In this document: positions 1,538-23,520 of the stretch, piece by piece
Layout of the letters: each line of letters opens with the position of its first letter
Position numbering within the stretch: position 1 is the stretch's first letter
IMG/VR virus record: IMGVR_UViG_3300008952_000267
Coordinates: 1-25,918 of that record
DNA from: a virus
Strand: one strand, 5' to 3'
DNA length: 25,918 nucleotides
Position numbers and translations under genes: made by a program
The notes under the pieces: generated by a model
What the model was told of the DNA's origin: nothing
The model's input: the letters and a program-made list of their open reading frames with translations, nothing else
Database searches by the model: none

Positions 1538-2589
1538 GCGGAATTTTTAAGTCAGTTAAGAAAGCCTTTAAGAAGGTTGGCAAAGTAATCAAAAAGATTG
1601 CTCCGGTGCTTATCGTAGCGGCGGCGGTTTATTTTGGCGGCGCATACCTGATGGCATCTTCCGGGGCTGGAACAGCCGCGGCTGGAGCGTCCGTTACATA
1701 TGGCGCTGAAGGAGTAGGGGCGGCTTTCACTAAATCCGCTGGCGTGTGGAAATCATTCCTTGGAGGACTCTCCAGTGGAACTGCTTCCAAGTCTGCTGTC
1801 GCGTTTGCTGAAGCCTCGTTTAAAGCCTCGCAGGCGAATATGGCGCTCTCAGGTCAGGTTGCCGCAGGAACCGCGGCGGTTAACAACCTTTCCACAATGG
1901 GAACCGTTGGTGAGGCAGTTAAGGCTGGCGTCAGCATGGCGCAGTCTGCTTTCTCCTCTGGTGCTGATCCGCAGTCCTCTTGGGGAATCCTTTGGAACGG
2001 GCTGAATGATCCAACTGCTCCTGCGCTTGAAGCCGCCGAAGCGGCAAGCGCGGCTTCGCCTGCTGGTAACCTTCTGTCACCTAAGCAAACGACACAACTA
2101 GAGAGCGGGTTGTTCGATCAAAGCACTTACATGGCGGATGCTTCTGCAACGCCTCCGGGTGCAATGTCCACAGACAGTACCTCCAGTATGTCTGATGGCT
2201 ATGGAATAGGAACAAGCCCTACTGATCGAACTGGGCTTGCAGGGAGCGCTATTGAGCCTGCCACTCAAGCGCCCACCGTTGAGGCTCCTCAAGGGCTTCT
2301 TACATCCCCCCCAGAAGCCCCAAGTACGATGACGTATATGACAGAGATGATTGCAAGAAATCAGGAATTGACCCTTGAAGGAATCCGGGCGCAGAACGAT
2401 TTATTGAAAGAGCAAATTGCGGCAAGAGCAAGTGCAGACAAAATGAAACTTGGCTTAACAGCAGGCGGAATGATTCTCAACGTGCTGGGTCAGTCTCAGC
2501 AGGCCAGCGCGGCAGAGGAAGAAAGAAACCGTAGTAGAAACTTCATTCCCCACAAAATCGCTTACAACCCATATAAGGGAATAGTCTAA
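1534..2589 (+). CDS. Ala-rich virion protein with an N-terminal basic/membrane segment
   Basis: A 351-residue protein with a lysine-rich N-terminus (residues 6-21), one hydrophobic segment at about residues 23-41 that could cross a membrane, a long low-complexity Ala/Ser/Gly/Thr region, and a helical C-terminal part from about residue 265 (NQELTLEGIRAQNDLLKEQ). A basic patch followed by one membrane segment is seen in small phage proteins encoded beside ejection proteins, so a role in the virion core or in crossing the cell membrane during DNA entry is a reasonable inference. No enzyme motif is seen. It overlaps the preceding gene by ATGA and the next by TAATG. Confidence 0.7.
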   Translation: MSGIFKSVKKAFKKVGKVIKKIAPVLIVAAAVYFGGAYLMASSGAGTAAAGASVTYGAEGVGAAFTKSAGVWKSFLGGLSSGTASKSAVAFAEASFKASQANMALSGQVAAGTAAVNNLSTMGTVGEAVKAGVSMAQSAFSSGADPQSSWGILWNGLNDPTAPALEAAEAASAASPAGNLLSPKQTTQLESGLFDQSTYMADASATPPGAMSTDSTSSMSDGYGIGTSPTDRTGLAGSAIEPATQAPTVEAPQGLLTSPPEAPSTMTYMTEMIARNQELTLEGIRAQNDLLKEQIAARASADKMKLGLTAGGMILNVLGQSQQASAAEEERNRSRNFIPHKIAYNPYKGIV

Positions 2590-3194
2590 TGGCTGAATTA
2601 CCTCCACAGATGCCTGAAATGCCGCAAGAGGGCATTATTGAACAGCCCGTTATGGAAAGCGCGGCTTTGCAGGCTGACGAATCCACAATGAATGACGCGG
2701 CGTTAAAGATTGTTGCGTCATCCAAGTCTCGTATATATGGCAATGAGTTTGATCAGTATATGCAAGTGTTGCAGTCAAGCGATAACTTGGTTGAGGACAT
2801 TGCGATGATTTCTCTTAACTTGATTGTTCCAGAGATTCAGGCGGTTTCATCGAGCGGGGAGGTTCCTTTTGATTACCTGATGGATGCCTCTGCTGATGTT
2901 GTCTCTGAGGTGTATGACCTGAGCGTTCAGTCGGGAGTGTACAGCCCATCGAATGAAGAAGAGATCGAGCGTAACCAAAACATTACTTTGACGATGGTCG
3001 CTGGAGAACTCGGCAAGTCTCTCGCAGATGGCAATGCCATTCCACAGGATGGCGTAGAACACTTTATTGAAAGCGTGATGGACGGCAACTACGACAACCT
3101 ACCCACTGAGGCAGATGTCGCCCCCGGAATGCCGCCACAGATGCCGGGAGGCGGAATGCCCCCAGCAATGCCCGGAGGAGGGATGCCCGTATGA
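2589..3194 (+). CDS. Acidic phage protein with a Pro/Gly/Met-rich tail
   Basis: A 201-residue acidic protein. The first 20 residues are rich in P, M, Q and E (PPQMPEMPQ), the middle is helical, and the last 25 residues form a short imperfect repeat of PPxMPGGGM units. The DNA for that tail ends in GGAGGAGGG about 9 bp before the next ATG, so the repeat also supplies a strong ribosome binding site for the downstream gene. It is coupled to both neighbours by overlapping stop/start codons. No known family recognised; a structural or ejection role is inferred only from the operon. Confidence 0.7.
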   Translation: MAELPPQMPEMPQEGIIEQPVMESAALQADESTMNDAALKIVASSKSRIYGNEFDQYMQVLQSSDNLVEDIAMISLNLIVPEIQAVSSSGEVPFDYLMDASADVVSEVYDLSVQSGVYSPSNEEEIERNQNITLTMVAGELGKSLADGNAIPQDGVEHFIESVMDGNYDNLPTEADVAPGMPPQMPGGGMPPAMPGGGMPV

Positions 3195-4519
3195 GCGAGT
3201 CAGGTGGAATTCTTTTGTCCGGTATTGGGCAAAGTCTAATTCAATTCGCAGACATCCAGCATGACACGAAGATTTCTGCGCTAGAGGCAGAAGCACAGCG
3301 CCAGAAGGAAATCCGTCTTCAGGAGATGCGAGTAAGCCGGGACGCAATCACAGATTCATTCCGTTTGGCTAATCTTGAGTCATCTCAGGAACGGCTAAGG
3401 CTTGCTCAGGAAACGTCCAACCTTGCTCAGGAAAAATTCGATTACGAAAAAGAACAGGACTTAATCGCTGATTACGACTCGACAAATCAAAACGTATACG
3501 GTCATTACTACGAAGAAGTTGAAGACCCATTGAATCCCGAGGCGACTATAAAAAAGCAACAGTGGGGAATTGTTGGTCAACGGCGTGTCCTCATAAACAA
3601 GAAAGACCCGGATGACATCCGTATCCTCAACATGGATGGAACCATGACCCGCGGAACCACCGCAGATTTGACTGCCGCAAATGCAAGCGCTCAACCAGTT
3701 AGCGGCACTGCCGCGCCTACGTCATTTGGCTCCATGAGTGAACTTGAAGACTACATAATAAAGAAACACAAAGACGCCGGAGAATCTCTAACTCCAGAAC
3801 ACGCAAAAATCATGGCTAAGTCGGCTGTCGATCTCGGAAGGGTCACCATCGGCGGCTCCGCCGCAGAAACGACTTCTGCCGTAAAAACTACTCCTGCCGG
3901 AGGGATAATCCAAACAGGCGGAGATGCGAGTTTGGCAGAAAGTAATTTCCAGAATCCCATAGAGTTTAAGAGGCATAGGGAGGAGATAGATAAGCATATA
4001 AAAAGTAAAATGCTCTCCGCGGTTTATGGCGAACAATATAAAAACGAACGCATCACAGAATTGGCGAAGGAGTATAACGTCTCCCCCGAAGAGATGGCGG
4101 GGTTATTAGGTTATGTGGTGGATGAGTCCGATATCGACATTGAAACTAGGTCGGCTCAAGCCCCCCCTATCCCTCGGAGGGTTACAACCGCCCCACAAGT
4201 GCAGGCCGACGCTATTGTCCCCGGAGGGGCCGTTATAGATGCCGCGGCGGAAGCAAGCGATCCCGCTACGATAGCCTCTGAGTTTGGCGGCCCTGTTGTT
4301 GTGCAAGAAGATCAAAACGTCTTTGCCTACGATGCGGCTAAATCAAAAGCCTTCATAGAAGGCCTAATCAAAGAGATGCAGACTGCAAACATTTCACAGG
4401 AAGATATCCGAAAAGAACTTCTTTTGATACTAGGGGGGATACCCAAAGAACAAGCAAATGGAGACTTCGCCAAAGCAGTGGCGAACGCATATTACGAGTT
4501 CACCAAGGGAACAAATTAA
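3191..4519 (+). CDS. Coiled-coil phage virion-associated protein
   Basis: A 442-residue protein. Residues about 15-95 are predicted coiled coil from composition (long runs of E, Q, R, L and A, such as LEAEAQRQKEIRLQEMR). The middle is rich in T, S and A, and a charged helical region lies near residues 255-300. No signal peptide, membrane segment or catalytic motif is visible. It starts inside the preceding gene (ATGA overlap, strong GGAGGAGGG site upstream) and ends immediately before the giant gene with no gap, so it is probably made together with that protein and may share its place in the virion. Function unknown. Confidence 0.7.
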   Translation: MSESGGILLSGIGQSLIQFADIQHDTKISALEAEAQRQKEIRLQEMRVSRDAITDSFRLANLESSQERLRLAQETSNLAQEKFDYEKEQDLIADYDSTNQNVYGHYYEEVEDPLNPEATIKKQQWGIVGQRRVLINKKDPDDIRILNMDGTMTRGTTADLTAANASAQPVSGTAAPTSFGSMSELEDYIIKKHKDAGESLTPEHAKIMAKSAVDLGRVTIGGSAAETTSAVKTTPAGGIIQTGGDASLAESNFQNPIEFKRHREEIDKHIKSKMLSAVYGEQYKNERITELAKEYNVSPEEMAGLLGYVVDESDIDIETRSAQAPPIPRRVTTAPQVQADAIVPGGAVIDAAAEASDPATIASEFGGPVVVQEDQNVFAYDAAKSKAFIEGLIKEMQTANISQEDIRKELLLILGGIPKEQANGDFAKAVANAYYEFTKGTN

Positions 4520-7500
4520 ATGGCTCTTACGCTTGACCAGTTATTTCCACAATCTGGACAACCAACTCAGTCTACTCCCGGTCTCACTCTAGACGAACTT
4601 TTCCCACCAGTTTCAACCGTTGAGTCAGAGCCTGTAATTGAAGAAAAACCAGAAAGCGGTTTCGGGGCGCACCTAACGAAGTCTCTTTATGATTCGCGTG
4701 ACTATATAAGTCTTGCCTTATCAGGCTTAGACGGCGCTGAAGGAAACGAGGAAGAAATTGCTAGGATCGTTGCGGAAACTTCTCGAAGGCAGAATGAGGT
4801 AATAAAAAGCGCCCAGCATCAGTATCTGCTCGATGTTGTTAGAAGAGAAAGCAAGGATGTAAAGGATGCAGAGGGCTTTGCTGATACTGCGTTGGCTGTA
4901 CTCGATGCCTCGGGGAAAACCATCTGGACGGCTGTCACTAATCCTCTTGGTGTAGCAGAGTTTGGCGCATCGCAGGCAGGCAACATGGCTGTGGCTGTTG
5001 GCGGTATGTTTGCTGGTGGTTTGGCGGGAATACCGGGTGGGCCTCTTGGTATCGCGATTGGCTCCAGAGTTGGGGCGGGAACGGCAGGAGCATCGGTCGA
5101 AACAGGAGCGGCCTACATTGAAGCCCTGATGAAAGCCGGGGTGGATGTTACCGATCAGGTCGAAGTGGAGAGAGCCATTTCTGATCCCGAGTTCCAGCGC
5201 GAAATGTACAAAAAAGGCTACACCAAAGGCCTCACCATCGGAATAGTTGATGCCGCGTTTATGGGTCTCTCAAAGATGCCCGGAACAGGGGCGGGGCGTG
5301 AGTTACGCAAAGACCTTCTTAAAGAAGGCATTGATATTAAGAAGAATGCCGACTGGGAAAAGATCGCCGTTAGACACGCCGAAGGCGATGAAGTAGTAAC
5401 CGCGGCATTCAAGAAGTACGCAGAAGCCCCAAGGGCCAAAGCAATCGGCACTAAAAGGATGACGATTGAAACCCTCGGTGAGGGGGTTGGTGAAGGTCTC
5501 GGCGGACTTGCCGCATTCGGTGAAACTTCGTTTGAAGACATCGCCCTTGAAATGCTGGGCAGTACCGCCCAGTCCGCTGTGCAGGCATCTGTCTCTGCGT
5601 CTTTATCTGGGTCAAAGCAACTTCTACAGAAGGCTACAAAAGAGGCTCTACGTCAGCAAGCGGATTCAGTTGCTAAAGGAGAGGCAAGCGGGATAGAGCC
5701 AGAAGAACTTAACGAGTCCTTGCGCCGACAGAAAGAGGGAGTAGGCGCACAACTCGATACGGTCTCCGCAACAATCTCCGCTTTTGAAGATGGCATAGGT
5801 GAGTCAGATAATGCTCAGTCCGTTATCGATACGCTTAGAACCGCGTTGACGCTGGAAGGCTTTGCAAATTACAGATTAAATCTGCAATCCGCCCTCCAGA
5901 CAGAAGACACATATCCGAATGGCGTGATGCCATTTTATGTTGCTCTCACCAAAGAAGAGCAGGCCACACTGGCGGCTGGGGGATCGCTTCCCGCCCCCGT
6001 GAAAGGAAGCCTCAACAGGGCTAACGTCAAAACGCTAAAAGGCAAAACCGACAAGAAAGGGGAAAACTTTGGTGGTCAGGACGTAGTCCTTGTTAAGGTT
6101 CCCGTTTCCTCGGTAATCATGCGGGGCAACTGGGACAAGTTGGAACTGGTTGTAGAGGCCAAGGGGATGCAACTGGCCGCGGTTCCTCAAGCCCCACAGC
6201 AGACTGAAACCAAGCCCGTCCTGTCCGAGAAACTGGAGCAGGAAGCAGATCGCCTTGCTAGGGAAGATGTTGAAACAACGCTTCAGACAGAAGTTGAAAT
6301 TGGGGAACTTGAAGCCCAAGCAATCGACAGGTCTAAGAAAGATGTTGATCTCGATACCAGAGAAGCAACCGATAAGGCCGCAAGGAAACTTGCTCAGTTA
6401 AGAGAACCCGATAACTACGAAACTGTCGCTCAGTTACAGGGGGCGGTGGATCGTAACAAAGTACCCTTATTCCCGGGACAGCGCAGGAAGCGTCCGCCGC
6501 TGGCTTTGGCTTTGCAGAACTACCGCAAGGCTCTGGAAAAGCCAGACAACATTAACGCATTGAACGATGTACTTGCGCCCACGGGATACAAATTATCAAA
6601 GAAGGCTGACGGTATTCATGTCGTCCCTATTGATAACAAACCCGCTCTCCGAGTCCCCAACACAGGGAACCGGGAAGTAGGTCAAAGCACCGTCGATGAT
6701 TATCTGTTCTGGATCAATGAAGAGCAGACAAAGAAAGCACCAGAAACGACTGAAAAGAAACAGGCCGCGCTAAAGAAAGAAGCGGCTCAGGTCGAGGCGC
6801 GAAAACCGCCAAGAGAAAATGTTCAGTCCATCATCGACAGCATCGAGAAAAACTTTGTTACTAGGAAAGGCAACAAGGTTACGATAGACGAGGAAGGTCT
6901 ATCGGATATTCTTGCCCAAGCGAAAAACATCGCTGGCTGGTCTAAGGCTGACAGGGGTCGGCTCGATCAGTATGTCCGCTCCCTTCGTAAGGAGCAGGAA
7001 CTTCAGACCCCAACCAAAAAAGCGCCCGTTGCAGGAACAACTATCACTGTTCCACAATCGGCTGGCGCTCTCACCTCACTAGAGTCTTCCTTCAAGCGCA
7101 CTGGTAAATCCAAGTTTATCGAGCGCGTAAGGAAACTCCTCACCGATAAGAAAGGCAACGACGCTCTACTTGCAGAGATTGCCAAAGCCTACCGTAAAGC
7201 GAACCCCGGCAAAGCCGAGGGTGATCTCGCCTCCATACTGACACTCACCGGAAAAGCCGATCAGGCAAACATAGCCAAGGCATACGCATTGGCTCAGATG
7301 CTGATTACGCTACGTTCGTCTGTGTCTACCATTCGCCCTGACAACACCCTCGCTATTGAGGATGGAAACCTGTCTGCGTTTATGCGTTTTGACAAGGTGC
7401 TTGATGGGGTTAAGGAGAATCAACTGGTCGGCCAGATCAAACAGGTCTTTGGTGAGGACTCAACCTATACCCGGATCAATGACTTTGAGGTAGTGGTCAC

Positions 7501-10500
7501 TAATCCAAAACTTACCCCGATCCAGTTCGCAAGACGGTTCGGGAGACTACGCGGAAAGCGCAATGACATCAGAAAATCGGAACTCTTTACAGCGCAAATC
7601 GAAACGCACACCCACGACTGGACTAAAGACCCTTCTGGAGAAAGCATCAGGAGCGAAATTCGCAGACTCGGATTCGGAAGTATTCTCCAATACGTTGATG
7701 ATCGGAGAGCCGATTACCTCGATATCGCCGAGGAGTTCGGGGCCAAAGAAGTAGCCCAGTACAGGCAGGCTCCAAGAGCGCCGCCGCAGGAAACCGCCGC
7801 TGAAGAAACCGAAGCCGCCGATGAGGCGGCTTTTTCTTTGGAGGGGCAGGCAATTGTATTTTCTAGAAAAATAGAAAACAAAAAAGAGCCTATGGGCTTT
7901 GTTCCTGATCAAGCCGAATACAGGAAGTATCCCAAAGAATCCGGCCTTGCCAAAGGCATCTTAGTCAAGATGACGCCGCAGGAGTTTTTGAATCTTGTCC
8001 CAAATCGGACTGAAGACTCAAATGTCGAAGCGATTCTGGATCGTCTGGAGCAGGGGGACAGGATGGCTCCTCCATTCCTTAATGTAGAGATTACAAAAAA
8101 CGGTCTTCAAATAACCGGGCATGAGGGGCGTGGGCGCATGATCGTGGCTACCTCTCTGGGCTTGACTGACGAAATAGAAGTCGATGTCTTTTTCAATAGG
8201 GATCGAGTAGAGGACTTTGACGCCATCGATCCAAAACCAGTTTTTATTTCCCAAACTGGAAGAGCCGACATTGACACCGTAGAGCCTCAAGTAACTGTTC
8301 CTCTCCGTAGATTAGAGGACACATCGCTGGATAAAGCCGACGAAAGCGTAGCCTTCTCTCTTGCTGAGACAACTAAGGTATACCCGGGTGAATACGAACT
8401 AACCGCCAGCGACGGAACCAAGTACAAGGTTGTACAGGCAGAGCCGGAAGAAACATTCGGCCCCGGCAGAGAGTGGAAGTTATACAGAGCCACAAAGGAA
8501 AACCCAGACTACCACGCTGACTTCGACTGGGACTGGATGGATACATTCCCCCGCCTTAAAGATGCCAAGGCTTGGGTGGAAGATCGAACCGCCGAAGGGC
8601 CGCTGTTCTCTTTGGAACAGGTAGACGATGCAGAAAACTTCCAAATAGAAGAAGACGAAGCCATCGGCTTTTACGATTACAAATCCGACAAGGATTTAAG
8701 CACGGAAGAGCAACGCCAGAAGTTATCCAGCAGGAAATTCAAGTTACTGCAAAAACGTCTTGGGTATGCAGAGGAAGCCGTAAGTAAGTTTAACGATATC
8801 GGAGTTCCTATCTTTGTTTACCATAAGCCATTTGACAGTACTGGCGGGTTCTTTGCTTATGACACAAAGGAAGACGGAACCCTTGTTGACCCAGAAATTC
8901 ATATTAATGTTGGACGAGCAAAAACACTTGCACAAATAACAAAGACTTTATCGCATGAGATGGCTCATGCTGTTATTGCCACAAAGTTATTTCCCAACAA
9001 CAAAGATTCAGTGGCATTTTTTAATAAAATTTATTCTGACAATCGTGCCGCGATAAACACTTGGTCAGCACTAAACTATGCGACTGAGAGCAATGCTGTC
9101 AAAGCAGAAGAATGGCTTGTATGGTCTATCGATCAAGAAATTGCCGCAATTGTTAGCGGCAAACAAGATTCGTTTAGTTTAAGCATCAGACGGATTGTTG
9201 ATCGCATAGCGAAACTTCTTTTTGAAACTCTTGGTTTTAATTATCAAAGACAAGAAGTTGCTCAGATAATCAAAGATGCGACTACTGCTCTTATCAACGA
9301 TTCTCAACGAATTGAAGTCACGGCTGAGAATCAAACCGACGAAGGGCCGCTGTTTGCGCTCGGGGATAGAAAGAAGCGTCGGATTGGAGAGGGGAAGGAC
9401 ACAGAAGATAAGACAACCCGACATCTTGAGGACTTGGAAAAAACCATTCCCGAATCAGAGAGAACGGCTAGGGCATCTAGAGGAAAACGGAAGACAGTTG
9501 ATGGGGGTGATTACCTCGATCTCAACCTAGATCAAGCAGGGAAGGGGATGCTTGGGTTGACGCAGGAAGAACTGACCAGTCTATGGGAGGCCTCGGTTGG
9601 CGATACCTCAAACAGTGAAGCGGCCCGTGAAATAATTTCCAAACTAAACATGGCTCCCAAGGATGTTGAATTCTGGGATGACGCGCTCCGACTTCCGGAT
9701 CGTGCGCGTTATTGGTATGAGGTCTCAGCGGAATCGTTTGAAAAAATCCTTCGCGTATCCAAAGGTGACCTGAAACGATTTATTGCAATAGTCTCTGCTA
9801 CATCGCCACAAGCCAACCCAATCGTGAATATGAAAAGGGCTATTGGTGTGTTCGCTCAATACATGGCTGGTGAACCCATCGATATGGATTTGACGATACC
9901 GCAGAATGTCCGAGAGGCACTAAAGTACGGAACCCTATCAGGGCTGAAAACCGGATCGTTTGCCGGAACGATGCAGTACATACTAGGTCTTGAGAATACT
10001 GCCCCGCTCTCAACAAATGACAGACAGGTTGCAAGTTCATTTGGTGTAACTGGTGATGATATTGCCACCAATCCAATCCTCTATGAGACCCTGAGCCGCT
10101 TCTATATCAATCTGAGGGACAAACTTAACTCGCAACTTCCCCCGGGGGCGGAGCCTTTTGAAACGTGGCAGTTGCAAGCGCTTGGCTGGGTAGAGGAACG
10201 GGCTACTAGCGAAGCAACAGATACGACCCGGGATCAGACGGATGATTATCTTTCCGCCTTGCAGTCTGAGGATAAAGGCAAGAGGCGTGGCGTCATTCCT
10301 ATACTTAAAAGCGCGGGGATCATTAAAAATGATTTCCTCACTGATAATGACCTTCGTAACCCCGCGATCCCGTCAGCCTTATCTGGAACCCTAGATCGTT
10401 ATAGAGAAAAACAAAAACTTACTATAGAGATTGGCTCTCCATTCTCTGACCTTCAGGCAGAGGCGAAAGCGTTAGCACAGGAGGCATTCAAGAATGATCC

Positions 10501-13500
10501 AGTAGCGGCCAGAGAATTTCTGGAAACATTTACTAGTGTTTTGTACGCCTCTGGCAGGGGGGTAACAAACCCCTTTAACGAACTTGTTTCAGCGGTTACA
10601 GGGAAGAAGACTACCCTGACAAGATTGCAATCCCCCACATCAGAATCGCCATTTGATATAGCCGGGACATACGAGGGGGAGGTAAGCCCCAATGTCCGTG
10701 TCCCCATGCCTGCCAACATGGCAGATGAAGATATGCGGGTGGTTATGGCGGTCATCGGACGCGCTTGGAAACAGGCCGCGATGGCGCATAGCAATTTCCA
10801 AGATAAGGGGAAAGCGGAGGGGGTTGATACACATTCCGTTTTTGTCGAGACAACCGAGAATCTAGGAACGGATGGAGCCTTATTTGGGCAATTCTCCTCC
10901 GCGCTACCTGATGGGCATGAGGTAATAATAGAGCGATGGCCCAACGGGTATATGTTGCACGTTACGCCCAGTTTTACAGACGAAGGCCCAGTATCTCTCG
11001 ATGCGAAAACTATAAATACAGAAGCGACCAAGACCTTTGGCGACACTGTTAAAGTCGGGCCGACTATTTTTTCTGGTGATTACATTGAGGCGGATGATTA
11101 TGGTAAAATCATATCTCGCTTCAGGAATAAACTCCGTCAAGACATACGCAAATTTGAGGCAATCAAAGATGGCAATAATCTCAGCAAAAGAGATGTCCGA
11201 AATCTTCAAACAAAGGCCGAAGCATCTGCAAGGCGGCTCGATAATCTCGATTCCGCTATCAGGAAAGCCAACAAACTCCAGCAAGAGTTTGAAAAAAGAC
11301 AAAGACAGTGGGTTGAAAAATACCGCAAAAGATTAAGCCCCGAGGCCGCAAGCCTCACACCCATCGACAAACCCGCCTCTGGCGGGTTTTCTGCTTCTGG
11401 GCTACGTCGCGCCCTTGTTAGCAAGTTTGGCGAAAAAGGCATTGCCCGTCTTGAAGCAGACGGCATCCTCGTAATTGTCGAATCCGCCGCGGACTTACCC
11501 GCGGGACTCATTAAGGATCAGGACGCGGCTCAACGCGCCCGTGGGTTGTTCGATCCTAAAACCAATACCGCCTACCTAATAGCGAATCGTCTCAACAGGG
11601 TAACCGCTCCGAAGGTTCTCCTGCATGAGGTCGGTACGCATTTTGGCCTCAAGCGAATGCTAGGGGACACGGCCTATGCTGACTTAATTGTAGAACTTGA
11701 GGCTGGCAAGGACACAACCTTCAAGCCTTGGTACGACCGCATCAGGGCCAACTATGGCGGCAGGGTTAACGAAGGAACAGATCGTTTTGCTGAGGAAGTG
11801 CTTGCCGCTATAGCGGAAGACACTAGCGAGATTACGTTGCCGCTCAGGACGCGCATCTGGAGAGCCATAAAAAAATTCCTGATTGGTGCGGGCCTACCGA
11901 AAAACCTCACCCCTCAAGAGATTGGATATGTTATCCAAGGCTCGTTGCGAAAGGCTATGCGTCAGAACGATCTTGCTCTGGCGAAGATGCCCCGCTTCAT
12001 GCGGATGGAAGGCGGCGATGTGCAACTGGGAGCCGCGGCTATTGCGTTCCCTGAGTACACCCAACCAACCAGAAAACTAACAGAGAAGCATAAACGCTAC
12101 GACATTATCAGCGCTATCGATAAGGTGCTTAATAGAAGCGAGGAGTTGCGTCTCCGAAGGAACATGGACGGCATGATGAAGGTGGCCGAGCGGGTGTACA
12201 AGAAAGGCTACAAGAACATCGATGTCCATCTCCCTGTTGTTTCTCCCAACACCAGCATCACCTCTCGGTATGCCATGTTCAAGAACACCCAAACAGGCAC
12301 TGAGTTGGTTATCAGGATGTCTGACCACCCTAAAGACCCGTTTGTTGCGGCAGGCTCTTTCCCGTTTGTTTCCTACAACAATGGGCATAAGACTGACATG
12401 ACCGACCTGTCTGATATTGAGAGGGCGGTTAAGTTGCTGTCTGCTGGAAAACTCGACGGCATGAACGGCCTCCAGTTCCAGTTTGAATACTCACTGGGTG
12501 ACGGCGTTGCTGGAATATCCAAAGCCAATAGCCAGAAGTTTACCTATGAGCAGTTCCTGCGAGGCCTCCAGAAAAAGAACCCAAGTATGTTTAACAGGGT
12601 TCAGGACAACGCACAGATGGAGTTGCGAAGTGGGGCCGTCATTGGGGAGGAAGGGCCAGTCTTTTCCCTAAACCGCAACAGCGGTCTCGATGAGGCGAGT
12701 AAAGCGGCAATAGCGAAAACGTCAGGTCGCGCTGGAAGGCGAAGTGCTGGCGAAATGGTCTCCGATGCCAGAAACCGCTGGTGGCAAAAAGGGGTTCAGA
12801 ACTGGGTAGATGCTTATCGCCCAATCAAAAACCTCCTTGGTGATCAGGCTACCAGAGCGTGGCAGATGATGCAGTTGTCGGAAAACGCCCACGGGATGCT
12901 TCACGCAATGCTTCATTATGGCGCTCCCAAAGCGCGATATCACAACGGAGAGTTCGATTGGTATGACGTGGACTTCTCAAGAGAAGGCCTGCTGGACATC
13001 CTGAAAGACCTTGACGGAGAAGCCGACAGGTTTATGTCTTGGATGGTTTACACCCGCGCTAATCGCCTAGCAAAAGAAGAGCGGGAAAAGAACTTTACAA
13101 CAGAGGAAATTGTCGCTGGCTTAAAACTGAACCAGCAGTCTAAAAACGACATGATGAAAAGCGGTCGGGATCGCCGGGTCGTTTACCAGCAAGCCATGCG
13201 GAAGATGTCCAAGTTGCAGGACTCCGTTTTACAGATGGCGGTCGATGCTGGAGTGATTGACGAAACTGTTAGGGAAACCTTGGATACAGATTTCTACGTT
13301 CCGTTTTATCGAGAGTTCACCTCAGAGGGGAAGACTGCGGTTCGTGGGCCAACTCCCTCGCATGACTTTGTAAACATCAAAAGCATCGTTAACCGACTTC
13401 GTGGTAGCGAAGAAAACATCAATGATGCGCTCCAGAACATGATGATGAACTGGACGACCATCATGTCTGCCGCAATGAAGAACCGTGCTGGAGTTGCCGC

Positions 13501-15337
13501 TATGGAAGCGGCCACAAAAGCCGGTGTGGCAACGCTGATTGCCAGCAAAAAGGACATTGCCAATATCGAATTCTCCAAGGGCAAAAGCCGTAACGAGAAA
13601 TTTGATTCGTTTGTTTACGTTCTCAAAGACGGCAAGAAAGTCTGGTACGAAGTTAATGATCCTCTTGTCTTAAATGCAATGGCATCTCTTGTATGGGGTG
13701 GAGTGGACTCTAAAGCACTTAGGACACTGTCTACGTTCAAGCGATGGCTAACCATCGGTGTTACAGCGTCCCCAGCATTCAAGATTAGGAACCTGATTCG
13801 TGACACGGTTCACTCGATTGCAGTCGGAAAACTTTCCTATAACGCTTTGGGTAATGCCAGCACTGGATACCAGACGCTAAAAGATAACCATCTTGTTACT
13901 GCCAACATGATGATGGGTGGCGCAACATTCCAGTTCGGTTTTTACAACGACGACCCAGCGGCCATCCGAAGGATGGTTGATGCAGTAGGTGAGGGGAGGA
14001 TTCTCGATACCACTGCCAAGGCGCGTAAAGCGATGGGCTTTTTATTCAACTGGTATCAAGACATCGGCAACAGAATGGAAAACGCCAACCGCGCCTCTCT
14101 GTACTTGAAGAGAAAAGAAGAGGTTGGTCACCTTCAGGCCTCGATGGAGGGCAGAGACCTTCTTAACTTCTCGCAACATGGTAGAGGCGTTGCCGCGCAA
14201 TGGCTGATGGCATCCATGCCTTTCCTCCAAGCCCGCATAAACGGCCTCGATAAGTTAGCCCGCTCAGGGGCCAAAGGGGAACGCGCCAGAATGCTCACCG
14301 TTGTCGGAACGGTGACTCTCGCAAGTATCCTACTAAGGCTTTCTTACGAGGGCGATGAGGATTACGAAGAGTTAGAGGAATGGCAGAAAGACACTTACTG
14401 GCCGATCAAAATCCCCGGCACAAAAGACTTCTTCTTCCTTCCCAAGCCCTTTGAAATTGGTGCAATAGCATCAATGGGGGAACGTATCACCGAAAACTTT
14501 ATTCGGGATGCTGGCGAATTGGGCATGAACGACTACACCCGGGCGCGTATCACTGATGCGCTGATGCACCAGTTAGCAGTGGACTGGCGTCCTCAAATTG
14601 TTAAGCCAATGGTCGAACTGTGGCAAAACAAGAATTCCTTTACTGACCGCCAAATCGAAAACATTACTTGGCAGATGAATAACCTACCCAAGGAGTTAAG
14701 GGTCAGGGCTTACACGTCTGATTTCTCTATTAAGTCGTCATGGGCGGTCGGAGAGATGCTGGACTTAATCGGATTAAAAGAATCGGGTTTACACGTTTCA
14801 CCTGTCCAGATGGATCACCTGATCAAAGGTTACTTCGGGTGGATCGGCGCAACCACAGCAGGCGCTTTTGACATCCTTTCAAGTGACGTTGACCCGCTAA
14901 CCAGAATCGATGAGATGCGAGGTTTACTCCCGGCTGGCTCGTTCTATTCCGGCTCTCCACGCAAATCCACCAAATACCTCACTCTGTTCTATGACCAGAT
15001 GGGAGAGGTCAAGGGACTGAAGGCGGCTTTTGATGCCTATAAAAGAAGAAGGATGGTGGACGAGGCCAGAGCAGTGGTTTCAGATAACAAAGATGTGATG
15101 CGTTGGCTGAGGACTTACAACAAAGCCAACGAGGCCATGCAGAAGATTAATAAACGTATTGGCTTTATTTACGACGACAAAGATATGAGTCCAGCAGACA
15201 AGAGAAAAGAGATCGACCGCCTCAATGAAATGAAGGTTGGCATCGCCAAGAAGATCGTCCTACGAAGGGCCGAAAGAGAGGCTGAAGAGGGCATTGAGAG
15301 CGATAACCCACTGGCAAGTTTGAGGGCTGAGAATTGA
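4520..15337 (+). CDS. Giant polyvalent phage protein (ParB/Srx-like, two zincins, LPD38-like)
   Basis: A 3605-residue polyprotein-like product of the polyvalent protein class, proteins thought to be packaged in the virion and delivered with the DNA. Visible parts: duplicated LTLDxLFP peptides (3-10, 22-29); a Gly/Ala-rich hydrophobic segment (about 145-200); unassigned regions to 1100; a ParB/sulfiredoxin-like domain with GHEGRGR (HEGRGR 1201-1206); a small unassigned module (1281-1357); a zincin with HEMAH (1479-1483) and EE at 1530-1531; a helical module with SATSPQANP (from 1759), possibly DNA-binding; a second zincin-like domain with HEVGTH (2369-2374) and EE at 2425-2426; an unassigned module; and from about 2720 a C-terminal region resembling LPD38. 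An EGPLFSL-like peptide recurs at 1101, 1274, 1358, 1607, 2154 and 2710, between modules. ATG 4520 follows the previous stop directly with AGGGA upstream. Domain calls for ParB and the first zincin are firmer than the rest. Cleavage into parts is possible but unproven. Confidence 0.85.
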   Translation: MALTLDQLFPQSGQPTQSTPGLTLDELFPPVSTVESEPVIEEKPESGFGAHLTKSLYDSRDYISLALSGLDGAEGNEEEIARIVAETSRRQNEVIKSAQHQYLLDVVRRESKDVKDAEGFADTALAVLDASGKTIWTAVTNPLGVAEFGASQAGNMAVAVGGMFAGGLAGIPGGPLGIAIGSRVGAGTAGASVETGAAYIEALMKAGVDVTDQVEVERAISDPEFQREMYKKGYTKGLTIGIVDAAFMGLSKMPGTGAGRELRKDLLKEGIDIKKNADWEKIAVRHAEGDEVVTAAFKKYAEAPRAKAIGTKRMTIETLGEGVGEGLGGLAAFGETSFEDIALEMLGSTAQSAVQASVSASLSGSKQLLQKATKEALRQQADSVAKGEASGIEPEELNESLRRQKEGVGAQLDTVSATISAFEDGIGESDNAQSVIDTLRTALTLEGFANYRLNLQSALQTEDTYPNGVMPFYVALTKEEQATLAAGGSLPAPVKGSLNRANVKTLKGKTDKKGENFGGQDVVLVKVPVSSVIMRGNWDKLELVVEAKGMQLAAVPQAPQQTETKPVLSEKLEQEADRLAREDVETTLQTEVEIGELEAQAIDRSKKDVDLDTREATDKAARKLAQLREPDNYETVAQLQGAVDRNKVPLFPGQRRKRPPLALALQNYRKALEKPDNINALNDVLAPTGYKLSKKADGIHVVPIDNKPALRVPNTGNREVGQSTVDDYLFWINEEQTKKAPETTEKKQAALKKEAAQVEARKPPRENVQSIIDSIEKNFVTRKGNKVTIDEEGLSDILAQAKNIAGWSKADRGRLDQYVRSLRKEQELQTPTKKAPVAGTTITVPQSAGALTSLESSFKRTGKSKFIERVRKLLTDKKGNDALLAEIAKAYRKANPGKAEGDLASILTLTGKADQANIAKAYALAQMLITLRSSVSTIRPDNTLAIEDGNLSAFMRFDKVLDGVKENQLVGQIKQVFGEDSTYTRINDFEVVVTNPKLTPIQFARRFGRLRGKRNDIRKSELFTAQIETHTHDWTKDPSGESIRSEIRRLGFGSILQYVDDRRADYLDIAEEFGAKEVAQYRQAPRAPPQETAAEETEAADEAAFSLEGQAIVFSRKIENKKEPMGFVPDQAEYRKYPKESGLAKGILVKMTPQEFLNLVPNRTEDSNVEAILDRLEQGDRMAPPFLNVEITKNGLQITGHEGRGRMIVATSLGLTDEIEVDVFFNRDRVEDFDAIDPKPVFISQTGRADIDTVEPQVTVPLRRLEDTSLDKADESVAFSLAETTKVYPGEYELTASDGTKYKVVQAEPEETFGPGREWKLYRATKENPDYHADFDWDWMDTFPRLKDAKAWVEDRTAEGPLFSLEQVDDAENFQIEEDEAIGFYDYKSDKDLSTEEQRQKLSSRKFKLLQKRLGYAEEAVSKFNDIGVPIFVYHKPFDSTGGFFAYDTKEDGTLVDPEIHINVGRAKTLAQITKTLSHEMAHAVIATKLFPNNKDSVAFFNKIYSDNRAAINTWSALNYATESNAVKAEEWLVWSIDQEIAAIVSGKQDSFSLSIRRIVDRIAKLLFETLGFNYQRQEVAQIIKDATTALINDSQRIEVTAENQTDEGPLFALGDRKKRRIGEGKDTEDKTTRHLEDLEKTIPESERTARASRGKRKTVDGGDYLDLNLDQAGKGMLGLTQEELTSLWEASVGDTSNSEAAREIISKLNMAPKDVEFWDDALRLPDRARYWYEVSAESFEKILRVSKGDLKRFIAIVSATSPQANPIVNMKRAIGVFAQYMAGEPIDMDLTIPQNVREALKYGTLSGLKTGSFAGTMQYILGLENTAPLSTNDRQVASSFGVTGDDIATNPILYETLSRFYINLRDKLNSQLPPGAEPFETWQLQALGWVEERATSEATDTTRDQTDDYLSALQSEDKGKRRGVIPILKSAGIIKNDFLTDNDLRNPAIPSALSGTLDRYREKQKLTIEIGSPFSDLQAEAKALAQEAFKNDPVAAREFLETFTSVLYASGRGVTNPFNELVSAVTGKKTTLTRLQSPTSESPFDIAGTYEGEVSPNVRVPMPANMADEDMRVVMAVIGRAWKQAAMAHSNFQDKGKAEGVDTHSVFVETTENLGTDGALFGQFSSALPDGHEVIIERWPNGYMLHVTPSFTDEGPVSLDAKTINTEATKTFGDTVKVGPTIFSGDYIEADDYGKIISRFRNKLRQDIRKFEAIKDGNNLSKRDVRNLQTKAEASARRLDNLDSAIRKANKLQQEFEKRQRQWVEKYRKRLSPEAASLTPIDKPASGGFSASGLRRALVSKFGEKGIARLEADGILVIVESAADLPAGLIKDQDAAQRARGLFDPKTNTAYLIANRLNRVTAPKVLLHEVGTHFGLKRMLGDTAYADLIVELEAGKDTTFKPWYDRIRANYGGRVNEGTDRFAEEVLAAIAEDTSEITLPLRTRIWRAIKKFLIGAGLPKNLTPQEIGYVIQGSLRKAMRQNDLALAKMPRFMRMEGGDVQLGAAAIAFPEYTQPTRKLTEKHKRYDIISAIDKVLNRSEELRLRRNMDGMMKVAERVYKKGYKNIDVHLPVVSPNTSITSRYAMFKNTQTGTELVIRMSDHPKDPFVAAGSFPFVSYNNGHKTDMTDLSDIERAVKLLSAGKLDGMNGLQFQFEYSLGDGVAGISKANSQKFTYEQFLRGLQKKNPSMFNRVQDNAQMELRSGAVIGEEGPVFSLNRNSGLDEASKAAIAKTSGRAGRRSAGEMVSDARNRWWQKGVQNWVDAYRPIKNLLGDQATRAWQMMQLSENAHGMLHAMLHYGAPKARYHNGEFDWYDVDFSREGLLDILKDLDGEADRFMSWMVYTRANRLAKEEREKNFTTEEIVAGLKLNQQSKNDMMKSGRDRRVVYQQAMRKMSKLQDSVLQMAVDAGVIDETVRETLDTDFYVPFYREFTSEGKTAVRGPTPSHDFVNIKSIVNRLRGSEENINDALQNMMMNWTTIMSAAMKNRAGVAAMEAATKAGVATLIASKKDIANIEFSKGKSRNEKFDSFVYVLKDGKKVWYEVNDPLVLNAMASLVWGGVDSKALRTLSTFKRWLTIGVTASPAFKIRNLIRDTVHSIAVGKLSYNALGNASTGYQTLKDNHLVTANMMMGGATFQFGFYNDDPAAIRRMVDAVGEGRILDTTAKARKAMGFLFNWYQDIGNRMENANRASLYLKRKEEVGHLQASMEGRDLLNFSQHGRGVAAQWLMASMPFLQARINGLDKLARSGAKGERARMLTVVGTVTLASILLRLSYEGDEDYEELEEWQKDTYWPIKIPGTKDFFFLPKPFEIGAIASMGERITENFIRDAGELGMNDYTRARITDALMHQLAVDWRPQIVKPMVELWQNKNSFTDRQIENITWQMNNLPKELRVRAYTSDFSIKSSWAVGEMLDLIGLKESGLHVSPVQMDHLIKGYFGWIGATTAGAFDILSSDVDPLTRIDEMRGLLPAGSFYSGSPRKSTKYLTLFYDQMGEVKGLKAAFDAYKRRRMVDEARAVVSDNKDVMRWLRTYNKANEAMQKINKRIGFIYDDKDMSPADKRKEIDRLNEMKVGIAKKIVLRRAEREAEEGIESDNPLASLRAEN
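7812..7839 (+). other. Terminator-like hairpin inside the giant gene (first)
   Basis: AAGCCGCC (7812-7819) pairs perfectly with GGCGGCTT (7825-7832) around a 5-nt loop, and TTTCTTT follows at 7833-7839. Taken alone this has the form of an intrinsic terminator on the + strand. It lies in frame within the giant gene, just at the module boundary that encodes DEAAFSL. Whether it stops transcription is unknown. Confidence 0.6.
8593..8607 (+). repeat. 15-bp direct repeat, left copy, at peptidase module edge
   Basis: The 15 bases CGAAGGGCCGCTGTT occur here and again exactly at 9340-9354. They encode part of the EGPLF boundary peptide and bracket the AT-rich HEMAH metallopeptidase module of the giant gene. 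Confidence 0.85.
9340..9354 (+). repeat. 15-bp direct repeat, right copy, at peptidase module edge
   Basis: Exact copy of the sequence at 8593-8607, in the same codon phase, at the other edge of the HEMAH metallopeptidase module. Between the copies, the 420 bases from 8881 to 9300 are about 38% G+C by hand count, while sample lines of the same gene on either side are about 45-57%. Confidence 0.85.
11369..11390 (+). other. Terminator-like hairpin inside the giant gene (second)
   Basis: AAACCCGCC (11369-11377) and GGCGGGTTT (11381-11389) form a perfect 9-bp stem with a 3-nt loop, followed by TTCTGCTTCT. It encodes KPASGGF at residues 2284-2290, in a linker ahead of the second peptidase-like domain. 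The T tract is short, so it is a weaker terminator candidate than the one at 7812. Confidence 0.5.
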
Positions 15338-16972: not shown

Positions 16973-17336
16973 AAAAACAGATGACAAGTTGGTAAAAGAA
17001 GCCGCCCCAGAGGCGGCTTCTTCAGTTAAGAAGCGGGTAATGCCCGTTGGAAAACCCTTCGTCAAGAATGATCCCCGGATCAACAGGGCGGGGCGACGGA
17101 TAGGGTCTCGCAACAAATTCTCTCAAGCATTCACGGATGCCATGCTACTCGACTTTGAGCAGTATGGAGAGTCTGTGATTGCCGAGGTCAGGCAGAAAGA
17201 CCCCTCGACTTACGTCCGAATCGCTACCGCTTTGATCCCCTCAAAGACAGAGCAGGAGATTGAAGTCAAAGACACCTCAGCCGAGAGTGTCAGCGAGATC
17301 GACTGGGACATAATAGTCGGCGGAAAGAAGGATTAA
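16965..17336 (+). CDS. Small-terminase-like DNA packaging protein
   Basis: A 123-residue protein. After a disordered charged start it shows RINRAGRRIGSRNKFSQAF (41-59), a form of the NPAGRPxGSRNK motif seen at the start of small-terminase-like phage proteins. Then follow an acidic helical region (LLDFEQYGESVIAEV) and DPSTYVRIATALIPS, also typical of that group. The small subunit normally recognises the packaging site for the large terminase; no large subunit is in this window. GAGGAG and AAAGG lie just upstream of ATG 16965. An 11-bp perfect hairpin covers codons 11-20. Its TAA shares bases with the stop of the convergent gene. Family assignment is from motif memory, so moderately sure. Confidence 0.6.
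   Translation: MAKKTDDKLVKEAAPEAASSVKKRVMPVGKPFVKNDPRINRAGRRIGSRNKFSQAFTDAMLLDFEQYGESVIAEVRQKDPSTYVRIATALIPSKTEQEIEVKDTSAESVSEIDWDIIVGGKKD
16996..17022 (+). other. Hairpin near the 5' end of the small-terminase-like gene
   Basis: AAGAAGCCGCC (16996-17006) pairs with GGCGGCTTCTT (17012-17022), a perfect 11-bp stem with a 5-nt loop. The inner arms AAGCCGCC and GGCGGCTT are identical to those of the hairpin at 7812-7832. No further T tract follows, so it could equally modulate translation or mRNA stability. Confidence 0.5.
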
Positions 17337-17560
17337 AGGCTTAAACATTTATCGTTCGCCATATTTGAGATAAAAGAATTCGGATATTTTTCAACCATGC
17401 CTCTTTTTTCTAATGCTTTTGCAAACTTATTTAAAGCGCGTCTTAAAACTAACTCCTCTGTCAGAGTGCCGCAATTTTCAAGAGCAAGAACGTGACCCTC
17501 AAACGTACTAGCCCATAACGCGATAGCCTGTTGTTCAGTTAAATCCATAGTAATTTTCAT
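17333..17560 (-). CDS. Small convergent hypothetical protein
   Basis: A 75-residue acidic-to-neutral helical protein (ITMDLTEQQAIALWASTFEGHVL...RRALNKFAKALEKRG). It starts at ATG 17560 on the minus strand, with only a weak GGA-type ribosome binding site. Its stop shares bases with the stop of the convergent + strand late operon. It lies beyond the terminator at 17697-17740, so it would need its own promoter, which I could not identify. The local DNA is AT-rich compared with the late operon. Function unknown. Confidence 0.5.
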   Translation of the reverse strand: MKITMDLTEQQAIALWASTFEGHVLALENCGTLTEELVLRRALNKFAKALEKRGMVEKYPNSFISNMANDKCLSL

Positions 17561-17643
17561 GTCGTTTTTCCAATTTTTGTGTGTGTACTTGTAAATGCCA
17601 AAAAATCAGAAAAGTGGACATTTTTTTGAAAATATTTTTGTAA

Positions 17644-17740
17644 AGCGCGAGGGGGCCGCGCTCCCAATCAACCAACCTACGAATAGGCTCTGCGAGGAAA
17701 AAAAAGAACGCGCCTTTGAGGTTGCCCCCTCGCTGGCGCG
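17644..17740. repeat. GC-rich nested inverted repeats
   Basis: A GC-rich island in AT-rich DNA. AGCGCG (17644-17649) pairs with CGCGCT (17657-17662). GCGAGGGGGC (17647-17656) is a perfect inverted repeat of GCCCCCTCGC (17724-17733), 67 bases apart. The second arm lies in the loop region of the terminator hairpin at 17709-17740, so the pairings exclude one another in RNA. Confidence 0.6.
17697..17740 (-). terminator. Intrinsic terminator downstream of the integrase operon
   Basis: Read on the minus strand, CGCGCC (17740-17735) pairs with GGCGCG (17714-17709), with an inner GAGG/CCTC stem, and the 3' side runs into TTCTTTTTTTT (to 17698). This is a textbook intrinsic terminator about 270 bp beyond the integrase stop, so the left operon transcript would include attP and end here. 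Confidence 0.75.
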
Positions 17741-17773
17741 ATGATTGCAATTTAACGATGTAAAAACAACATT

Positions 17774-17799
17774 GATATACACAGTTATGCTGTATATTG
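17774..17799. promoter_or_regulatory. Operator-like inverted repeat left of attP
   Basis: ATATACA (17775-17781) and TGTATAT (17791-17797) are a perfect 7-bp inverted repeat with a 9-bp spacer. The octamer GATATACA recurs in the left promoter at 22794-22801, and GTATATTG (17792-17799) recurs upstream of the repressor at 23618-23625. Repressor or integration-factor binding is inferred. Confidence 0.4.
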
Positions 17800-17841
17800 T
17801 CGTATTGCTATTTCAACGAAAGTGGACGGGTCAGAGGTCAC

Positions 17842-17870
17842 TTCAGTTAACGTGTTGAAATAACTATACT
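17842..17870 (+). promoter_or_regulatory. Possible promoter reading into the attP tRNA half
   Basis: TATACT at 17865-17870 is a good -10 hexamer. At a 17-bp spacing, TTCAGT (17842-17847) is a poor -35. Transcription would begin near 17877, about 18 bp before the tRNA-like sequence at 17895. After integration this could drive the rebuilt host tRNA gene. Confidence 0.35.
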
Positions 17871-17894
17871 TTTGCATCAATTTCGTCGTATTTT

Positions 17895-17931
17895 TGGGGG
17901 ATCGTCTAGCGGTAGGACTGCGGACTCTGAC
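17895..17931 (+). other. attP: attP core: 5' half of a tRNA-Gln(CUG) gene
   Basis: These 37 bases fold as the first half of a tRNA: acceptor strand TGGGGGA, D stem GTCT/GGAC with loop AGCGGTA, anticodon stem 5' strand GCGGA and a 7-nt loop with CTG at 17927-17929. Identity stops at the 3' edge of the anticodon loop: the matching TCCGC is missing and no 3' half follows. A leading U followed by GGGG and a CUG anticodon fit tRNA-Gln. It sits about 80 bp beyond the integrase stop. CGTCGTA (17884-17890) and TACGACG (17972-17978) form an inverted repeat around the core, and AAAGTGGAC occurs at both 17613 and 17819, possibly as arm sites. The isotype and attP role are inferred from fold and position. 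Confidence 0.75.
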
Positions 17932-18010
17932 GAATTTGGTTTAGTCTTTTTATCAACCACTTACAAACCCCTACGACGTAATACACTTTACAAATCAGCC
18001 TGTTTGGCCG

Positions 18011-19219
18011 TTAGGCTACCTTTACGAGCCTGATCGCCTTCTCATCAGACCACTCGGTCAACTTCTCCAGAGCGGCAACCAGTGACGGCCCATGACGATG
18101 CACATAAACATCGAAGGTGATGTCACCAGAGGAGTGGCCCATCAATGTCTTGATCGTCTCGCCCTGTACCTCCATGTCAGCCAATCGGCTGGCGAAGGTA
18201 TGGCGCAGATCATGGAACCTGAAGTGCCTGTTCTTGCCTCTGACGTGTTCCAGCCCAGCCTGCTTCACACCCCGTTTGAACACGTTACCCTTCAGGTAGG
18301 ACGTATACGGCTCTCTCACGACGCCTGAGCGCTTCTCCTTGGGTCTGGTGAAGACATAGTCAGGGTGGTTGCCCCTTTGTTTATCAATGATCTCCCGAGC
18401 GACTGAGTTCAGGAACACCATATGCGGAACCTTGGCCTTCATCTCAGACTCCGGTATGCGGAACGCCGTACCTAAGCCCGGAATCTTCACCTCCCAATCC
18501 CACCTCAAACCGCGCACGTTTGCATCACGCAGGCCTGTGTTCAGATCAAATTCCACTATTTCTCTAAGGTGTTCTGTCAGGAAAGGCAGTAACGCTCGTT
18601 CCTGACTACTTGTCAGCCTATGGCCCTTTGGGGTCTTGTGATCAAGGAGTCCAATCTCGTTGTACTCGGGAATCAGGGTCATCCCATTTTCCTTCCACAC
18701 TACATTCCTAGACTGCTTGCCATAGACCTTTCTCTGGCCTTGGAACCCGCTTGCCATCTTCAGGATATGGTTCAACGTCCCGATCTTTTTATTGATCGTC
18801 GCGTTTGAATTGCCCTCTTCTTGGCAGTACTCGATCATCTCAGAAAGTTCTGCACTATCATTATCGATGCTGTGCAAAAACACACCGCCAAAAAACATTT
18901 GCAGGACAGCAAGGTGTTCACGCGCTGTTCTGATCTGATGCTGGGTTTTGCGGGTCTTCCAATAGCGATCCACGATTTCATTGAAAGTGTATCGGTGTCT
19001 TTTTGGCCCCTCCTCCAATTCCCTCTTGGTTGCGATAATGCACCTTGTCAGAACCTCACAAGCGGCCTGTTCGTCCGTCTCGTAGGTTGACCCGTGTATT
19101 ACCTTCTTGAACCTTGTGGGATCAAATGCAAGTTCCGGCGGAATTGTTACCGTCTTACGCATGACCCACATTCCAGATCGCTTATCCTTGGATAATCCGT
19201 TCATCTTTTCCATCTCCAA
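18011..19219 (-). CDS. int: Tyrosine recombinase integrase
   Basis: A 402-residue site-specific recombinase that joins attP with a host attB site. The catalytic set is visible: R231 in NTGLRDANVRGL, a likely lysine at 261 or 263, HDLRH at 336-340, GH at 361-362 and the nucleophile Y372 in FDVYVHRH. The N-terminal part (about 75-160) looks like the core-binding SAM-like helical domain, with a shorter arm-binding part before it. Three in-frame ATGs lie close together (19219, 19213, 19204). The last overlaps the excisionase-like gene's stop as ATGA and may be the true start; GGAG precedes the middle one at six bases. The gene's 3' end faces attP, as usual for integrases. It is last in the left operon. 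Confidence 0.95.
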   Translation of the reverse strand: MEMEKMNGLSKDKRSGMWVMRKTVTIPPELAFDPTRFKKVIHGSTYETDEQAACEVLTRCIIATKRELEEGPKRHRYTFNEIVDRYWKTRKTQHQIRTAREHLAVLQMFFGGVFLHSIDNDSAELSEMIEYCQEEGNSNATINKKIGTLNHILKMASGFQGQRKVYGKQSRNVVWKENGMTLIPEYNEIGLLDHKTPKGHRLTSSQERALLPFLTEHLREIVEFDLNTGLRDANVRGLRWDWEVKIPGLGTAFRIPESEMKAKVPHMVFLNSVAREIIDKQRGNHPDYVFTRPKEKRSGVVREPYTSYLKGNVFKRGVKQAGLEHVRGKNRHFRFHDLRHTFASRLADMEVQGETIKTLMGHSSGDITFDVYVHRHGPSLVAALEKLTEWSDEKAIRLVKVA

Positions 19220-19458
19220 GAAGCGACCCCTGACCGCCCACCCATTCTAGCCACAAAGTTTTCGAGATCAACCTTGTTGAAAAAAATTTTGTGTCCGATC
19301 TTTATTTCGGTCAGACGCGGTCTGATGTGTTTCTCAAACGAGGTGCGTCCAATGCCAAGATATTTTTGGGCCTCTGCTTTGGGAATCAACGGAGAGTCTT
19401 CTGAAGGGATCGACCAGCGATCAGGCTCTTCCCGAAGAAAGTCGTTAACCTCTTTCAT
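19201..19458 (-). CDS. xis: Excisionase-like helix-turn-helix protein
   Basis: An 85-residue protein with a MerR/excisionase-type helix-turn-helix at about residues 24-70. The pattern is LIPKAEAQKYLGIGRTSFEKHI, then IKIGHKIFFNKVDLENFVAR, in which helix, turn, helix are followed by a short wing and a closing helix. It is just upstream of the integrase and overlaps its start, the classic place for a recombination directionality factor that bends DNA and favours excision. It could instead be an AlpA-like transcription regulator. It abuts the preceding gene's stop exactly. The start ATG 19458 is the only sensible one. Confidence 0.75.
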   Translation of the reverse strand: MKEVNDFLREEPDRWSIPSEDSPLIPKAEAQKYLGIGRTSFEKHIRPRLTEIKIGHKIFFNKVDLENFVARMGGRSGVASWRWKR

Positions 19459-22887: not shown

Positions 22888-23520
22888 CTACATATCGGTT
22901 ATGAATTGCTTTGCAACGGCTATGATCTGGTAGCCACTTTCATCCGTCTCAATCGCCGAGTACTGGGCGTTTAGCGGCCTCAACAAATGACGGCCCCCAG
23001 ATACCCTTAACTGCCGGAAAAGTGGTGTTTCGTTGTCGTTTATTATTACTAGAACGGCATCGCCGCTTTGCGGCTCCGCCTCCACATCGAAAGCGACGTG
23101 GCCCCCAACCCTAACAGGCGAGTCGGGGGCGACCATCTCGTCGCCGATGATCTCTAACGCAAAACCCTTTGTTATCTTCTTAGTAACTGGCATAAATTTG
23201 CGCCCCTCAAAGTTGCTCGACTTAGCCTTCGCAGAAAAGGTTGATGCTTCGTCGATTGAGATCACAGGAATAAAAAACACTTCCTGTCGATGGTAAGCGC
23301 CCTTGGATGATGGTTTACCAGTTGCGAGTTCTTCCGCATCGACCTTGAGGGCTTTCGCCATCTTGATCAATTGGCCCATCTTCATTTCTTTTATAACGCC
23401 CATCTCGTATTGAGAGATCGAGGCTCGGCTTAAGCCCATTTCTCTGCCTAACTGGCTCTGGCTTATTCCGATTCTTTCTCTCAGCATTTTTATCCTCTGA
23501 CCCAGTGGTGCATCGGACAT
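22888..23520 (-). CDS. cI: CI/LexA-like phage repressor lacking self-cleavage residues
   Basis: A 210-residue repressor. Residues 6-66 are an XRE-type helix-turn-helix domain (LRERIGISQSQLGREMGLSRASISQYE). Residues about 83-205 are an S24/LexA-like dimerisation domain (VFFIPVISIDEAS, FALEIIGDEMVAP, GDAVLVI, LFRQLRVSGGRHLLRPLNAQY). In cleavable relatives the nucleophile is the serine of GDSM and the base is a lysine in FKQL. Here these positions are E128 and R169, and the Ala-Gly cleavage site is A92-S93. The protein should bind operators and keep lysogeny but is predicted not to self-cleave with RecA. AGGAGAG precedes ATG 23520 at a good distance, and a strong terminator follows. Confidence 0.9.
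   Translation of the reverse strand: MSDAPLGQRIKMLRERIGISQSQLGREMGLSRASISQYEMGVIKEMKMGQLIKMAKALKVDAEELATGKPSSKGAYHRQEVFFIPVISIDEASTFSAKAKSSNFEGRKFMPVTKKITKGFALEIIGDEMVAPDSPVRVGGHVAFDVEAEPQSGDAVLVIINDNETPLFRQLRVSGGRHLLRPLNAQYSAIETDESGYQIIAVAKQFITDM

Follow-up and report, generated by a model that had tools for sequence, protein, structure and literature searches.

A phage attachment site carrying the 5' half of a tRNA-Gln(CUG) gene, with a candidate relic of its junction in a gammaproteobacterial genome

We describe a viral sequence whose predicted phage attachment site (attP) carries the 5' half of a tRNA-Gln(CUG) gene, and we consider it very probable that this attP belongs to a temperate phage, that its tyrosine integrase recombines within the anticodon loop of the host gene, and that the phage supplies the 5' half so that the tRNA is rebuilt and transcribed from phage DNA. 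The window, by which we mean the whole stretch of DNA analysed, comprises the 25,918 nt of IMG/VR virus record IMGVR_UViG_3300008952_000267. Its attP block (17895-17931, + strand), TGGGGGATCGTCTAGCGGTAGGACTGCGGACTCTGAC, is identical to bases 1-37 of complete tRNA-Gln(CUG) genes, covering the acceptor strand, the D arm, the 5' anticodon stem and all 7 nt of the anticodon loop. The match from the first tRNA base to the edge of the anticodon loop, which an earlier note had read from the window, is therefore exact and ends on the last loop base. The anticodon CTG lies at 17927-17929, within the loop CTCTGAC (17925-17931, + strand), which the alignment places at the limit of host identity in the window. 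The behaviour of the overlap region is known for tyrosine integrases that use anticodon loops, and by analogy CTCTGAC would be expected to form the 7-bp region of strand exchange. When searched with a small tRNA library built for this analysis, the tRNA half scored E = 8e-10 and the next-best tRNA match elsewhere in the window E = 2.3, which places the half far beyond chance. Neither ARAGORN nor the Rfam tRNA model called a whole tRNA in the window, and the 3' half of tRNA-Gln is absent from it.

The tRNA half is convergent with a gene for a 402-aa tyrosine integrase (18011-19219, - strand) and is separated from its stop codon by 79 bp. The integrase matches PF00589 (3.4e-19; 69.7 bits against a curated cut-off of 27.1) and phrog_1 (6.5e-40), and its predicted translation contains the motif FRFHDLRHTFA. 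Next to it lies a gene for a small HTH protein (19201-19458, - strand), possibly an excisionase, with a weak match to the excisionase/regulator family phrog_66 (0.0025) and an HTH_17 match (3e-4) that falls below Pfam's cut-off. A CI-like repressor with HTH and peptidase S24 domains (22888-23520, - strand) and, further along from the integrase, the recombination genes ERF and YqaJ fit a temperate phage. A single ORF of 3605 aa (4520-15337) takes up more than 40% of the record and matches a known family, the large polyvalent protein LPD38, only at its C-terminus; its counterpart in the viral contig L132 has 3228 aa. To the left of this giant gene (1-4519) lie five large ORFs, two of which have PHROGs matches, one to an acetyltransferase family and one to a family of unknown function, and no structural or packaging gene was recognised among them. 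The first ORF contains a 12-bp tandem repeat, CCTACGCCTAGC, at 207-338.

The same attP was found in three further viral contigs (L092, L093 and L094), whose integrases are 90% (L092) and 46% (L094) identical to that of the window. All 37 tRNA bases are identical in the four sequences, and the left arms of the window and of L093/L094 are only about 71% identical; in L093/L094 the identity to the host tRNA extends to 40 nt. Invariance of the tRNA bases beside arms that diverge is the pattern expected from selection for an intact rebuilt tRNA. The reading of the site as an attP with the 5' half of tRNA-Gln is thus borne out by its place beside the integrase gene, by the missing 3' half and by the same arrangement in the sister phages. 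Beyond the integrase gene of three more distant viral relatives (L140-L142) no tRNA-Gln half was found. We also noted that about 310 bp that separate the attP arm from the last late gene (17333-17646), containing a 75-aa ORF with no family match (17333-17560, - strand), are missing at this place in L092 and L094, reflecting either an insertion in the window or a loss in those two.

A search of 84,980 species genomes for the exact 37-mer returned 90 stretches, mostly from Gammaproteobacteria, so that the host tRNA-Gln(CUG) genes sharing this 5' half, which the earlier note proposed looking for, do exist. ARAGORN called a complete tRNA in 88 of them and the other two, clipped by a contig end, nevertheless run on into the tRNA 3' half; in all 90 contigs the host 3' half adjoins the 37-mer. 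The most informative of these is L066 (DPVA01000224.1), a 1.5-Mb gammaproteobacterial MAG of Acidiferrobacterales type in which the 37-mer occurs once only. Here 246 bp matching window positions 17687-17931 at 88% continue directly into a complete tRNA-Gln(CUG), so that the counterpart of the left arm of the phage (17687-17894, + strand), the predicted upstream DNA of the rebuilt tRNA after integration, stands in front of a bacterial gene. The products of the two genes downstream are 80-87% identical to their counterparts at the same tRNA in the syntenic relative Acidiferrobacter sp. IN47 (L034), where an arginase-family gene lies upstream and the tRNA has its native promoter, TTGGCG-N17-TAAAAT, at a distance of 11 nt. 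With a phage arm in the one and a native promoter in the other, the upstream DNA of L066 has been replaced, as integration through a 5' half predicts.

Judged from its sequence, L066 is the predicted junction, preserved as a prophage relic. The rest of the prophage is missing: upstream of the arm come about 330 bp, in which no match was found, and then a fragment that we take, by eye, to be hyuA-like and a livF-like ABC transporter gene (PF00005). As L066 is a MAG, chimerism is possible, and two false joins would be needed to produce this arrangement. Searches for an intact prophage with the exact 37-mer (84,980 genomes), with arm DNA and with the large phage protein (each in the 109 genomes of the relic's order) and with an integrase profile (369 genomes of the class) found none beyond L066, and the integrase-side junction of this phage, with a 5' half only, was not found among the 90 contigs with the 37-mer. 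Of the prophages predicted to be joined at the anticodon loop, what was recovered is thus this relic junction and no intact element. Two other apparent relics were rejected, L006 because its short arm match consists only of host-type promoter sequence and L071 because its arm match extends no further than 16 bp upstream of the tRNA.

These data fit a simple scheme. The integrase would exchange strands within the anticodon loop of tRNA-Gln(CUG) and, since the phage carries the 5' half, one prophage end would join the host 5' half to the phage integrase gene, leaving a dead tRNA fragment, and the other would join phage arm, phage 5' half and host 3' half into a complete tRNA. The rebuilt tRNA would be severed from its native promoter and would need transcription from phage DNA, and selection for an intact tRNA would keep the 5' half exact. 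The exact crossover base is one that we infer, and so is the proposed role of the arm in driving transcription of the rebuilt tRNA. The earlier note went further and had the prophage controlling expression of an essential host tRNA; as to its effect on the tRNA, the sequences carry us as far as a replacement of the upstream DNA. "Essential" also appears overstated, because a separate tRNA-Gln(UUG) gene is present in five of the six genomes checked in the relevant order, which makes it doubtful that the CUG gene is indispensable.

Where the promoter lies is less clear. Hexamers in the 120 nt preceding the tRNA were rated with a simple sigma-70 score and compared with those of shuffled sequences; the hexamer frequencies are approximate, making the score a yardstick only. 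The -10 candidate put forward earlier, TATACT (17865-17870, + strand), 24 nt before the tRNA, is weak. Its best -35 candidate by hexamer scoring, TTCAGT (17842-17847, + strand), 17 nt upstream, matches at three of six positions; the pair reaches 8.3 where shuffles average 7.2, one in four (25%) of them attain its score, and the -10 hexamer reads AATACT in L066. Statistically this element is unremarkable. No promoter in the window's own arm scored better than shuffled sequence over the same 120 nt. A second -35 candidate, TTGAAA (17855-17860, + strand), is the best-conserved stretch within 60 nt before the tRNA and occupies positions -40 to -35 from it in all the phages and in L066; in the 30 nt closest to the tRNA the window and L094 agree essentially at random. 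In L093/L094 it forms TTGAAA-N17-TAGAAT, ending 11 nt before the tRNA, with a score of 12.8 that about 1% of shuffles reach and a position equal to that of the native promoter in the host group (L006, L031-L034, L045, L046 and L086). At the same 17-nt spacing the window, L092 and L066 have a poor -10, CAATTT. Our view is that the phage family would bring its own promoter, which in the window is weak or of uncertain position; most likely this promoter is built on TTGAAA, about 40 nt from the tRNA, and is strong in L093/L094 and weaker in the lineage of the window.

It also should be considered that TTGAAA is part of a conserved inverted pair, TTTCAAC (17811-17817) and GTTGAAA (17854-17860), spanning 17811-17860 (+ strand) with 43 bp from start to start and found at identical positions in the window, L092 and L094, and that it might serve as a protein-binding site, in place of a promoter role or alongside one. 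An integrase or regulator site overlapping the -35 is possible, and a search for arm-to-arm repeats that might act as integrase sites gave no clear excess over shuffles in any of three phages. It would be a long shot to propose that the pair binds integrase, excisionase or repressor such that the decision between lysogeny and excision shifts tRNA-Gln(CUG) up or down; were a phage protein to sit over the -35 in this way, the prophage would regulate the decoding of CAG and make its own loss costly.

We sought parallels with an integrase profile built from three integrases and searched over 369 genomes of the class. Relatives were found in 25 of these, and their attachment tRNAs lie 3' of the integrase gene and convergent with it, as in the window. 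By tRNA calls resting on the small tRNA library, the 30 integrase loci divide into 17 with a complete tRNA, about seven with the 3' part only, two with the 5' half only and four with none recognised, in keeping with the idea that the 3' part is usual and the 5' part rare. The two 5'-half loci are in genomes G440 and G470. The G440 integrase is a distant relative of that in the window with the same arrangement, a tRNA-Arg target and a present-day prophage: on contig C12 it adjoins a lone 5' half of tRNA-Arg(UCG) ending after the anticodon loop, and on contig C41 a complete tRNA-Arg stands between phage tail-fibre genes on its upstream side and, downstream, the host genes for an aldolase and SMC. 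Both copies of the tRNA sequence are preceded by about 55 bp that they have in common, including the promoter-like TTGATA...TAATAAT. These prophage ends are on separate contigs and the prophage is not spanned in one piece, yet the arrangement indicates that the wider integrase family includes a 5'-type prophage that carries a promoter copy of its own. A complete tRNA preceded by element DNA, as the earlier note anticipated, has accordingly been seen in one relic, L066, whose prophage body is gone, and in this analogue. In G470 (L150/L178 and L180) a related integrase adjoins a lone 5' half of tRNA-Pro(GGG), and a lone 3' half with the common core GCATGGGGTGCAGG lies at a contig end elsewhere; insertion of this element apparently divides tRNA-Pro(GGG) and does not restore it. 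At L164 a complete tRNA-Thr stands beside the integrase gene and, at a distance of about 140 bp, a further lone tRNA-Thr 5' half (89%); this locus may bear the marks of two insertions at the same site.

Three other explanations should be weighed. That the site is no attP, and the tRNA fragment was carried by chance or captured, would leave it no surprise that an intact prophage of this exact phage was not found, yet the half adjoins the integrase gene, its identity stops precisely at the anticodon-loop edge, it is conserved across four viral contigs, and the junction in L066 contradicts this explanation, which we regard as extremely improbable. A more serious proposal is that the 5' half is integrase core only and that integration breaks a dispensable tRNA-Gln(CUG), with nothing functional rebuilt because tRNA-Gln(UUG) suffices. 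The presence of tRNA-Gln(UUG) in most of the genomes checked, the want of a convincing promoter in the window arm and the apparent behaviour of the G470 element all speak for it. A core, however, can be much shorter than 37 nt (8-10 bp is enough in PMC10865867), none of the 37 positions varies among phages with arms that diverge by about 30%, and complete tRNAs are kept at the phage junction in L066 and G440, so that we think it unlikely.

Somewhat less unlikely, though still improbable, is that TTGAAA and TTTCAAC are arm sites for integrase or excisionase and that the tRNA is transcribed by read-through from phage late genes. The distance of each motif from the core is constant across the window, L092 and L094 (-84 for TTTCAAC, -41 for GTTGAAA), the late genes point towards attP in a rightward + strand block that reaches 17336, and no terminator-like site was called in 17300-18050. 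Against this, TTGAAA belongs to a strong promoter at a host-like position in L093/L094, lysogens normally keep late genes silent, L066 retains its tRNA without late genes, and the fruitless search for arm-to-arm repeats offers no help to such sites. We therefore retain as the best account a 5' half that rebuilds the tRNA, with transcription from phage DNA.

Classical tRNA-targeting phages and islands reportedly include an anticodon-loop class, set out by Williams in 2002. Such phages are like the window in having a tyrosine integrase, an expected anticodon-loop crossover and an attP beside the integrase gene with a convergent tRNA, and unlike it in carrying the 3' half and keeping the host promoter. 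In the passage of PMC6563490 that cites Zhao & Williams 2002, recombination at the 5' side of tRNA genes is considerably less frequent than at the 3' side, and the mode outlined there, in which the 5' part of the target RNA gene comes from the element, is like that of the window, which adds a phage lineage with tRNA-Gln(CUG) as target. In the plasmid pTN3 of Thermococcus nautili (Cossu et al. 2017, PMC5495485; reviewed in PMC8371274), 41 bp are identical to the 5' half of tRNA-Leu; like the window, the plasmid has a 5' half in attP, a full-length tRNA is rebuilt and the original promoter is separated. Unlike the window, pTN3 is an archaeal plasmid with its attP within the integrase gene, so that integration splits that gene, whereas the attP of the window is intergenic and its integrase gene stays whole. 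In pTN3-like archaeal elements, expression of the rebuilt tRNA depends on element DNA, something rarely encountered in bacteria (PMC8371274; PMC5495485). In the tRNA-dependent lysogeny of mycobacteriophage Fionnbharth there is no rebuilding of the host tRNA; a whole tRNA, equipped with its own promoter, is encoded by the phage (PMC10865867). As in the window, phage DNA becomes responsible for tRNA supply after integration, but no whole tRNA is present in the window, which may be an incomplete genome; the broken-gene proposal above resembles such lysogeny minus the phage tRNA.

A 5'-half attP is thus a mode already known, from Zhao & Williams 2002 (as given in PMC6563490) and from archaeal pTN3, and rare, since with most tRNA-targeting phages it is the back half that comes from the phage, and the bacterial promoter stays in place; the window is a new, well-supported example in a bacterial phage. 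The family offers a conserved attP, a host relic, a relative with an empty site and a parallel at an unrelated target (G440). As a 5'-type element must bring a promoter, the promoter question is directly testable in this family, in which G440 carries a copy of the tRNA upstream region and L093/L094 carry promoter-like sequence with host-like spacing. With L066 as a case, our findings suggest that prophages may permanently rewire the promoters of tRNA genes by a simple route.
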